Source: Ustilaginoidea virens
Taxonomy: Eukaryota > Ascomycota > Sordariomycetes > Hypocreales > Clavicipitaceae
NCBI RefSeq assembly: GCF_000687475.1
Contig: NC_057316.1
Coordinates: 4,030,001-4,094,000, forward strand
Length of the DNA: 64,000 bases
Direction of reading: 5' to 3'
The position numbers and the translations under genes were made by a program. Positions 57,625-61,429 of this stretch are shown piece after piece (position 1 is the first letter of the stretch; every line of letters begins with the position of its first letter). The notes under the pieces were generated by a model. The model was not told where the DNA came from, ran no database searches, and saw only the letters and a program-made list of their open reading frames with translations.

Positions 57625-58850
57625 GTTCCAGGGGGAGGGGGGAGGGGGGAGGGGAGGGGGGGGGGAGGGGGGGGTTGACAGCCGAGACGCTCGATGGCTG
57701 CCACTTGCCGATAGTCTCGTGTAACCCGGCCGGGTGGTTCTCGTTTCCTTGCAAGGGGGCGGCGAAGAAAGAAAATTTTTTTCTTTTGGCCCTCGAAGAA
57801 ATGTGGTGAGATGTTAAGAAGCTTCGTTCGGATCCTGCTACTGCCCCCCCTCGATCAGGCGCCGGCCCCACTCTTGCCTCATGGAGCAAATCCTTACGAC
57901 GGACAAGATCTACCTGCGGGAATGTAGCATGTACAATGTAGCACGTTAGGTTTGGTGGTTTTGCAGGAGCTTCTACCTTGGGAATGTGGGAGTGTGGGAA
58001 TGCGGGAATGCTGAAAGAACTGACGTAGGTACCCATCCACGTCTATTAGCGTTTCGGCAAAGCAGTCGGCAACTAGCCACCAAGGAATGAAATGAATGAC
58101 TGAATGATAAACCCTTATCCCCACCCCACCCCTTTGGGCAGGCGGGTCCGGGGCGGCTTTTTGCCTCGGCTGTCCGGACACAGTCACCCCAGTGCCTTCG
58201 CCCTGATGCTGAACCGGTCAGCCGCTAACCATCGGCGCTGCCAGACGCTACATACATATGTACTTTGCAACCCGACGGAAGCCCGGTGGGCACCCAAGGT
58301 TCCGCCGCCGCATCACCGTCCAATTTCCAGTAGGTACCTACCTTAACATTGGGTAACTAAGGTACATACATGCCTTGGGTAAGTTAGTCGCGACGACCAG
58401 ACGGACCGGACCTACAGTCCAGACCGCCTTCGTACCGTTGCTAGGCGCGCGGATTTGACCAAGTCAAAACACGTGGTCTGTAGTACGTGTCTCCATAATT
58501 TTAGATGAAGCCAAGCCCGCCAGATCATACATGGCCCAGATGATGGGCTACAGGCATCGAGGCCAAGCAAAATCAAGCGGACAATTCTGATTCCTGAAAG
58601 TCGAAACCGTGGGGGAGGAAGGTGGGGGTGGGGTGTAAAAACCCAGCAGGCCAACTCCTACCTTACCTTAGGTACCTACCTCCTAGGTAGGTACCTAGGT
58701 AGGTACCCAGAAAGAAAAGTCCGTTCAGTGGAGTAAGCCATGCGAGGCCCTACCTCCGGTCCGACAACCAATCGGATTATTGCATGCGATTGCAGTCGCA
58801 GGTCCCACCCCAACGTGAAACGGCAGAGTTGGGGGCAGGGAGACTACATA
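57625..58850. other. Upstream of oxidase-like gene
   Basis: 57630-57675 is almost pure G with single A interruptions. Later, GGTACC palindrome clusters occur at 58331-58385 and 58660-58710. No gene seen. Confidence 0.5.
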
Positions 58851-59608
58851 TCAACCGACCTATGCCCCCCCCTAGTCATTCGACCCCCCCATAATAACTT
58901 AACAGACCTGACCAATGCTCTTTCCTAATATAGAGATACGCTAATAAATAGTAGTAGATCCTTTAATCTATAGTAGCCACTAGACTATAAGTATCTTTAT
59001 ATATATTTTTCTATGGTGAGTGACTTCCCTTATATTTTTACTAGGTATCCCTACCTAAGAACCTAATATTAAAAGTAAATAAAGTACCTTTATATAGATT
59101 TTTCTATAGAAAGCGACTTCTTTTCTTTTATTAGGTAGGTACCTAGGTCCTTAGGTACTGTACGTAGAAAAAGTAAAGTACCTTTATATATATTTTTCTA
59201 TATAAAGTGACTTCTTATATTTCTACTAAGTACCTAGTATCTAGGTATTAGGGATAGAAAGAGAAGTACCTTTATATATATGTTTCTATAGAAAGTGACT
59301 TCTTTAACTTCTTTTACTACCTAAGGTACCCCTACTATAGAACCTAAAAAATAGTAGAGAAAGTACTTTCCCATATTATTTTCTATATAAAGTGACTTCT
59401 TTAATTTCTTTTACTAGGTACCCCTACCTAAAAACCTAGTAAAATATCAGAGAAAGTACTTCTCTATATAGTTTTCTATATAAAGTGACCTGACCCACTA
59501 TTCCCTAATAAACCAATTATATTAAGAGTATAGCCCACAGCAATGGTCAGGTCAGTTAAGTTATTATGGGGGGGGTCGGATGACAAGGGGGGGACACAGG
59601 TCGGTTGA
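58851..59608. mobile_element. 758-bp inverted-repeat element (MITE-like) with internal tandem array
   Basis: The two ends, 58851-58919 and 59539-59608, are near-perfect inverted repeats of about 70 bp. Each reads TCAACCGACCT, a C run, GTCATYCGAC, a second C run, ATAATAACTTAAC and GACCTGACC inward. Only about seven positions differ. The interior is very AT-rich and holds six tandem copies of a 93-bp unit. No open reading frame of note lies inside, so it would need a transposase from elsewhere. A clear target duplication is not visible: flanks are ACTACATA and CCTGTACC. The class is therefore open. Confidence 0.88.
58983..59490. repeat. Six-copy AT-rich tandem array, period about 93 bp
   Basis: A conserved AGTGAC core recurs at about 59019, 59112, 59206, 59294, 59391 and 59484, spacings 93, 94, 88, 97 and 93. 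Each copy has CTTTATATATATTTTTCTAT before it and a TAGGTACC-type segment after it. Copies differ by scattered substitutions, so the array is not new. Confidence 0.9.
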
Positions 59609-61429
59609 CCTGTACCCTCGGTCCCATCGGATGATCTGAAACCCGAGTTTCGGTGCCGTTCCTTGATGCAGAAATCCAGGATCCAGCCCTCCCGACAAAA
59701 TCAATCATCAAAGCCAAGTGCTTGCACGTCCGTATGTCCCCTATGAATATTCTGGATTCGTCAACCTCCCCTCCATCTAGGTGAGGTGCTCATCAACAAG
59801 CAACCGTCGTCAAGACAAGATGGCTGTGGTGGCACATGACTGGGAGATTCGAGAGATCCGAGCTTTACCTTGGCGGGCGCTTTGCTTCACCATACCAACA
59901 ACTTGACATGGTCAAACATAAGCAGCATCCTGTTTCCAGACAAAGTCTTCCGACTGGTGCGTATCTTCGAAACCGTGGTTTGAGTTGTACGTGACTCGAG
60001 GGCCAAGTCCGTTCAAAGACACTAGTCTCGTGTTCCGGAACTTCCCAGCACATAGCACGCCATATTCGGCGGAAAGTTCCGGCGAAAGTTAAGGAGGAAT
60101 CAAGGTAAAAACTAGTCCTTGAAAAATCAAGGGAGCGCTCCGTGCAGAGGACGGAGTTGCTCTGCTCTCCCCCAGGACCCCAAGGTATACCGAGTATGGG
60201 GAATATTGTGCACAACGTGCCTCTCGTTAATGACACGTTTTCTTTCTTTCTTTTTTTTGTATTCCCTTTTTTTTCTTTTTTCGTTTCCCCCTCCCCCTTC
60301 CCCCCCCTTTTTTTTAAATTCTTTTTTATAGGTGACGGACCTGTCACATTCCAAAACTGATGAAAACCATGTGGCTAGACAGCAGGGGTCCCAAAGGGCC
60401 AAGATGAAAAAACTGATAAATAAGAATAAACGAGTAAAGTAACAAGAGAAAGAGCAAGGCGAGAAGAGAAGCAAAGCAGAAAAGTCTTCATCATGTGGCT
60501 TGGTCAGATTTGACCAAAACCAAGTGAATGAATGATATTTGGTCGATTCGGTGTCGGTGGGACAGACGTGGACAGACGTGGACAGACGTGGACAGGCTCG
60601 TCTCGGCAACGAGGCGGCAGCTGAATGCAATGCCGGCTTGCCGGCTTGCCAGCGACAGGGTTGTAATAAGTGGAACTCTCTGGCCGGTTCGAATGCTGAA
60701 CCGTCCCCTGGTCGATTTGTACGGGCCGTTGCCAAGTGGGCGTTTGTGCCATCATTTCCGAGTTATGTAGTAAGTCATAGGCTAAAACGGGGCCAGCACA
60801 TTGATGATTGATCTAGATCATGCCTGGTCTATTGAGTAAGTCTACTCCTTACTCCGTACCACGGCACGAAACCCGGTACATGGGCACGTCATTTGAATTT
60901 TTTTTTTTTTGTCCCGGCCCAATTCTTTTACCACTGCTTTGCGGGTTGTCGCCGTCGCTTGTCGATCTTTGGCGCCCATGGCCCATCAAGAATATGAGAC
61001 TGCGCGCGTGCCGACGAACAACGGCTGGCGGATATGCCCATGGAAAAGATGCCAGCCTGGTTGAACTGGACATGATGCTGCCATGGCCTCGGGGCGTGAG
61101 CCACGGCTGAGCCTCGACTGCAAGCCGTCTGGTAAGCTGTACGGAGTAAGCTGCAAGGTGTAAGCGTACTCCCGTACTGAGTAAAAATGATCAACAACCG
61201 TCAGAGTGCCGACGGTCCAGCCCAGACTCCAGGCTGGGCCCAGGAACGTGGGCAGGTGCGGGGCACCGCTGTTTCCTACATACTTGCCTGCCGCTCCTAC
61301 TTGCCTGCCGCTCCTACTTGCCTGCCGCTCCTTCTGCCTGCCGCTCCTGCTGCCTGCCGTCCCTACTGCCTGCCCGCCAGGCTCCTGCTGCAGGCGTGAC
61401 AGAAGGCTTTAAAAAAGAAGAAGAAGAAG

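Follow-up and report, generated by a model that had tools for sequence, protein, structure and literature searches.

The inverted-repeat element at 58840-59619 of the window (the whole stretch of 64,000 nucleotides that was analysed) is very probably one copy of a young, multi-copy and non-autonomous DNA transposon family, a MITE of Mutator type. A preliminary description had offered a MITE as one of two possible readings, and that reading is borne out by the many copies found in the genome, by the exact 9-bp target duplications that flank 36 of 41 of them and by a long element sharing the same ends. The features of the window copy, whose ends were set by comparison with other genomic copies, are as follows.

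58831..58839, + strand: left 9-bp flank, gggggcagg; 5/9 mismatches against the right flank
58840..59619, + strand: complete MITE, 780 bp, GAGACTACATA...CCTGTACCCTC
58840..58919, + strand: left terminal inverted repeat, L type; outer 11 bp GAGACTACATA, two C runs
58974..59502, + strand: six units of ~93 bp; unit consensus core GTACCTTTATATATATTTTTCTATAGAAAGTGAC
59505..59538, + strand: right subterminal stretch, also common to both ends of a long array-free element
59539..59619, - strand: right terminal inverted repeat, R type; outer 11 bp GAGGGTACAGG
59620..59628, + strand: right 9-bp flank, ggtcccatc

The terminal inverted repeats with two C runs had been given as 70 bases long; repeats and C runs are present, and comparison with other copies moves each limit outward by 11 bp. 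The resulting repeats of ~80 bp fall into two gapless blocks, with a complementarity of 84% (51 nt) and 94% (36 nt). No ORF of at least 80 aa overlaps the element, as had been noted, and its GC content is 33.8% compared with 55% in the window. The six-unit array was recovered as first described, with start-to-start distances of 93, 94, 88, 97 and 93 bp and each unit refound by a profile built from the six; all units point in one direction and lie between, not inside, the inverted repeats. A DNA search of plasmid records gave no match.

Across the assembly (37.16 Mb, 8 contigs), a 26-base end pattern was matched 165 times with at most three mismatches, and the reversed control gave no match. 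For a gene of the window, of which 552 aa served as query, the best named protein matches include Pochonia (77%), Conoideocrella (76%) and Metarhizium (76%), which points to Clavicipitaceae. Narrower patterns, allowing at most two mismatches, identified 85 L ends and 77 R ends. When opposite ends no more than 30 kb apart and of opposite types were paired, 70 L-R pairs were formed and 22 ends stayed unpaired. Most pairs (65/70) are short, from 591 to 1266 bp, and they occur on all seven large contigs; six measure 591-604 bp, seven 653-705 bp, 31 761-804 bp, 15 850-899 bp and six 1117-1266 bp. Short, non-coding, bounded by terminal inverted repeats and present in many copies, the family has the make-up of a MITE, and its copy number is at odds with the single copy at a fixed position that had been named as an argument against mobility. 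An apparent older and degraded relative, with the end GAGTACAAGTCAACCAACC and decayed units, lies at L018:330-745, ~0.75 kb from a young copy. Nothing on this MITE family was found in the literature, which is weak evidence of absence.

Target duplications were scored in 41 distinct complete copies without forcing the end types. Exact 9-bp duplications flank 36 of these copies, and 38 have one with at most one mismatch. At other lengths, exact flanking duplications were seen at 6 bp (two copies) and 12 bp (one copy), and never at 7, 8, 10 or 11 bp. Three more exact 9-bp duplications were read by eye in L075, L076 and L077. An L end is paired with an R end in 41/41 copies, and the orientation within the locus is one way in 18 and the other way in 23. 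The 1480-bp flanks of 30 copies have a GC content of 46-65%, none of the 60 being below 40%, and these copies therefore sit in GC-normal DNA rather than in AT-rich blocks. Tc1/mariner or pogo elements, suggested by CAACCGACC beside the C runs, are defined by a TA target duplication and were rejected on the 9-bp duplications; hAT elements, defined by an 8-bp duplication, were rejected on the count of exact 8-bp duplications (0/41).

The window copy (L001) is one of three among the 41 that are without a duplication, together with L036 and L054. A near match to its right flank, ggtcccacc, occurs at 58802-58810, ~30 bp left of the left end, and may represent a displaced target duplication or a chance resemblance. 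A search for a reciprocal recombination partner gave no genomic match for one of the two possible junctions.

The profile of the six window units counted four units in five of the 41 copies, five in one, six in 31 and seven in four, and the length classes of the copies track this number of ~93-bp units. Four of the six copies in the 1117-1266 bp class were inspected: L066 has six units, L075 six and L076 seven, the latter two with inserted sequence, and L077 has seven strong unit matches, two neighbouring ones being separated by ~300 bp. The earlier idea of a MITE that seeds tandem repeats found no footing here. Arrays hold four to seven units and none of 44 copies checked (the 41 plus L075-L077) exceeds seven, so that satellite growth is without support. 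A satellite-type array spread by recombination, with the inverted repeats as by-products, would account for tandem units and for integer changes in their number, but it sits badly with exact ends and exact 9-bp duplications in 36/41 copies, with the occurrence of short end pairs on every one of the seven large contigs and with this ceiling of seven units, and we consider it extremely improbable.

Several copies have themselves been targets of insertion. An LTR-retrotransposon-like family (Copia by eye) has inserted repeatedly into the MITE family, its long partner and one MULE derivative (L063:1308, L066:2210-2549, L075:213-551, L074 at about 756, L069:824, L079:1765 and L078:312). Three of these insertions lie in arrays (L063, L066, L075) and break at one unit motif, roughly GGTA(C/T)CC(C/T)TAC. 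In L076, an insertion between the last unit and the right end is flanked by a direct repeat of roughly 60 bp (TGTTGCACCAAAAGTGTGACGCC...) and holds a tRNA-like GGATTCGAACC stretch in which ARAGORN found no tRNA; it is perhaps a SINE.

The second of the two initial readings, a structural element, gained little support. On this reading the unit hairpins would act as RNA or chromatin signals and the copies would spread only as passengers; in its favor, two of the six units fold better than shuffled sequences (z -2.7 and -3.6) and some contain a 15-bp imperfect inverted repeat. Against this, the other four units have z between 0.0 and -2.0, compensatory change was seen in 0/10 predicted pairs of the unit hairpin across 12 hand-picked units, and the best Rfam matches reach about 22 bits where the thresholds are 72 and 99, which makes a structural or RNA element highly unlikely. 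The repeat unit had also been said to contain TAGGTACC, the palindrome scattered through the spacers of the window. It is present, in exact form in only two of the six units (59136-59145 and 59415-59422), but the special link to the spacers did not hold: over the whole window 31 occurrences were seen against 0.73 expected, and 28/31 lie outside the element, which therefore points to a general habit of the local sequence. As an observation on the window itself, TAGGTACC and AGGTACCT palindromes exceed expectation some 30- to 40-fold (31 against 0.73 and 19 against 0.57, respectively).

Regarding the superfamily, the 9-bp duplication of the MITE falls within the range of Mutator elements, MULE target duplications being given as 8-11 bp in the available part of PMC6446971. 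Long terminal inverted repeats, a further mark of Mutator, measure ~80 bp in the MITE and roughly 110 bp in its long partner; the same portion of that source gives 85-99 bp for one fungal Hop subgroup (PMC6446971). The genome also harbors PF10551 at two loci, with stops inside and without the ends of the MITE. These loci (L068:3014-6142 and L067:2981-6124) hold elements of 3.1 kb that are 95% identical to each other and have 113-nt inverted repeats, GAG...CTC ends and the 9-bp duplications CGATTGCGG and GGGGAAGAC (read by eye). We take this resident MULE to be Hop-like from its PF10551 domain, not from a tree. A genome search with it listed 99 matching stretches, including paired ends ~0.7 kb apart. 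The inverted repeats of the MITE match those of the resident MULE no better than shuffled sequences do (p 0.80 and 0.97); hence what carries the Mutator assignment is the length of the duplications, the GAG...CTC letters at the ends of the MITE and the length of its repeats. The same MITE could belong to another superfamily making 8-9-bp duplications, for which Merlin- or KDZ-like elements are candidates, and owe its Mutator look to coincidence. That dissimilarity of the inverted repeats and the lack of a MULE domain found in the long partner lean this way, but the duplications are exactly 9 bp (exact 8 bp in 0/41), and GAG...CTC ends with 9-bp duplications recur in the resident PF10551 element; we judge this unlikely and keep to the Mutator assignment.

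An autonomous partner with the same ends had been envisaged from the outset, and a long element with these ends does exist, in which no transposase was recognised. It is one of five long pairs. Those at L063 and L069 are MITE sequence interrupted by the retrotransposon-like insertion, and at L070 an AT-rich stretch of about 7 kb splits the right inverted repeat; these three were rejected as autonomous partners. In the 27-kb pair C1:4327794-4355233, array units adjoin both ends. The fifth, C3:3629457-3642323, spans 12.9 kb between an L and an R end, is flanked by the perfect 9-bp duplication CATGCATCG and, in the 0.9 kb next to each end, shows no convincing array unit, the best match scoring 3.8 bits. 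Positions 666-780 of the window element match its left positions 1-114 at 85%, and positions 667-780 match its right end (1-113) at 88%. Over roughly 110 bp, the two ends of the long element resemble each other as well as the right end of the MITE; with the left end of the MITE the match covers 75-80 bp.

Parts of the interior of the long element recur at two further end-bearing loci with 91-93% identity. The left interior (1760 bp) is found at C4:4308691-4310453 and, in two pieces, at C3:4236465-4237335 and C3:4244743-4245632, and the right interior at C4:4379134-4379924 and C3:4247527-4248317; smaller pieces lie on C6 and at C3:1562898. In register with the C4 recurrences are an L end at C4:4307892 and an R end at C4:4380007, 72 kb apart, and in register with those on C3 an R end at C3:4248400; at the C3:4236 kb locus there was no L end within two mismatches among those listed. 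A retrotransposon-like insertion occupies the 12.9-kb copy from 2.6 kb inward, and the coordinates of two copies suggest that without interruption the element would measure about 5.3 kb. The 12.9-kb copy was examined outside C3:3636001-3641449 and the middle region in the sister copy L080. In windows of 200-250 bp, GC content is 20-31% in the left interior and 17-28% in the sister copy, and both carry stops in all frames. A Pfam search of 14 X-coded frames from stretches of these two heavily mutated copies retrieved no family at the cut-off, the sole sub-threshold match in the long partner being PF14607 (GxDLY; E 0.01, 16 bits against a cut-off of 27), and protein searches with two frames of the long partner gave no match at E <= 1. 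RIP-like mutation has by now ruined the long relatives, which may once have supplied the moving enzyme.

The MITE copies themselves are closely similar. Thirty six-unit copies share 91.9-99.7% pairwise identity (mean 96.8%), with 99.4% over the left 60 bp, 91.7-99.1% in the middle stretches and 96.5% over the right 57 bp. An 81-bp left-end query starting at 58840 is identical at 34 of the 40 places scored (out of 164 candidates), the window's own included. Within the set of 30 six-unit copies the window copy is isolated, its nearest neighbours being at 96.7%. Its composition is marked by few CpA+TpG (37 seen, 87 expected from base frequencies) and many TpA (128 seen, 85 expected), the opposite of the rest of the window (CpA+TpG 8556 against 7805 expected, TpA 1820 against 3125). 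Differences between copies are not centred on CpA: among 46 C>T column variants, 13 stand before A and 22 before T, and among 28 G>A variants, 8 stand after T and 14 after A. We read this as a founder shaped by RIP and then amplified with little further RIP, although AT-rich low-complexity sequence by itself could mimic part of the pattern. The resident MULE copies give no clear RIP index (0.98/1.37 and 1.03/1.22).

The unit core aligns to the inner half of the inverted repeat of the resident MULE, AGAGAA--AGTACCTTTATATATATTTTTCTAT-AGAAAGTGAC with AGAGAACTTGTACCTTTGCACCTA-TTTTCTATGAG-TAGTGAC, with p about 0.0007 against shuffled targets and 0.0017 for shuffled queries (3000 shuffles each); this likeness was found after the fact among five comparisons of AT-rich sequence. 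In a search of 187 kb of genomic sequence and 200 shuffled MULEs, the top matches of the unit profile were stretches beside L018 (36.5 and 34.2 bits) and L028 (19.1 bits), and the next best unshuffled ones were three of the four MULE ends, at 8.7-9.2 bits with E of only 0.8-1.1. The fourth MULE end was absent among the 25 matches listed, and one of the 200 shuffled MULEs reached 9.6 bits. The MULE deletion derivative L078 gave 12.4 and 7.7 bits with the unit profile. We treat the unit core, on this weak hint, as a lead that may mark a candidate transposase-binding site. Extending it, the array could consist of amplified putative transposase-binding sites that derive from the inner inverted repeat of another MULE, a Hop-like one, so that the MITE would have gained four to seven docking sites for the transposase of a second MULE, with a founder stripped of CpA by RIP and copies offering genome defence little to mutate. 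This broader proposal is a tentative one, which we hold to be rather doubtful.

The history of the family may be pictured as follows. The founder probably arose by deletion from a longer element that bore the ends now seen in the MITE, and the AT-rich tandem array would have taken the place of the gene region of that element. A transposase made elsewhere would bind the ~80-bp inverted repeats and move the element, with insertion at the new site through a 9-bp staggered cut, of which the duplications are the trace; the enzyme might come from a MULE that escaped detection or was lost, or act by cross-mobilisation. The classes of unit number suggest that the array later gained and lost whole units.

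This work adds a recently active and abundant Mutator-type MITE family, together with its long dead partner, to a fungus with RIP-like marks. The number of units can readily serve to mark the lineage of an element. If the unit core were a transposase-binding site, the classes with four, five, six and seven units would form a natural dose series relating binding sites to MITE movement. Finally, the RIP-like make-up of a young family makes the escape of 'pre-RIPped' elements from genome defence testable.

Among known systems, MULEs of the Hop group of Ascomycota resemble the MITE family in their 9-bp duplications and long inverted repeats, but no transposase was recognised for the MITE family, and its inverted-repeat sequence is unlike that of the resident MULE. 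Two animal elements come close in structure. From what the accessible text of PMC3169594 relates, Tm1, a Mutator/Foldback element of root-knot nematodes, shares 9-bp duplications, a short outer motif that differs between the two ends, tandem repeats that vary in number and the coexistence of MITE-like and transposase-bearing forms in one family. In the same account, its tandem repeats are mostly of 14 bp and lie inside the inverted repeats, whereas here a single array of ~93-bp units, all in one direction, occupies the space between them. Tetris of Drosophila virilis, as portrayed in the portion of PMC4079207 at hand, is also non-autonomous, with 8-10-bp duplications and variable internal tandem repeats, and has been suggested to be a Mutator member. 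Its repeats are part of the inverted repeats and have expanded into satellite arrays (PMC4079207), whereas arrays here stop at seven units or fewer in 44 copies. A Foldback element of the Tm1/Tetris type was rejected, the window units lying between the inverted repeats and not within them. In a fungal plant pathogen, short MITEs occur near genes and are less affected by RIP, as stated in the available section of PMC9970103. The present family is likewise short, recent and set in GC-normal surroundings; it differs from those MITEs, as they are depicted there (PMC9970103), in that the element itself is poor in CpA/TpG, as if its founder had passed through RIP before amplification.
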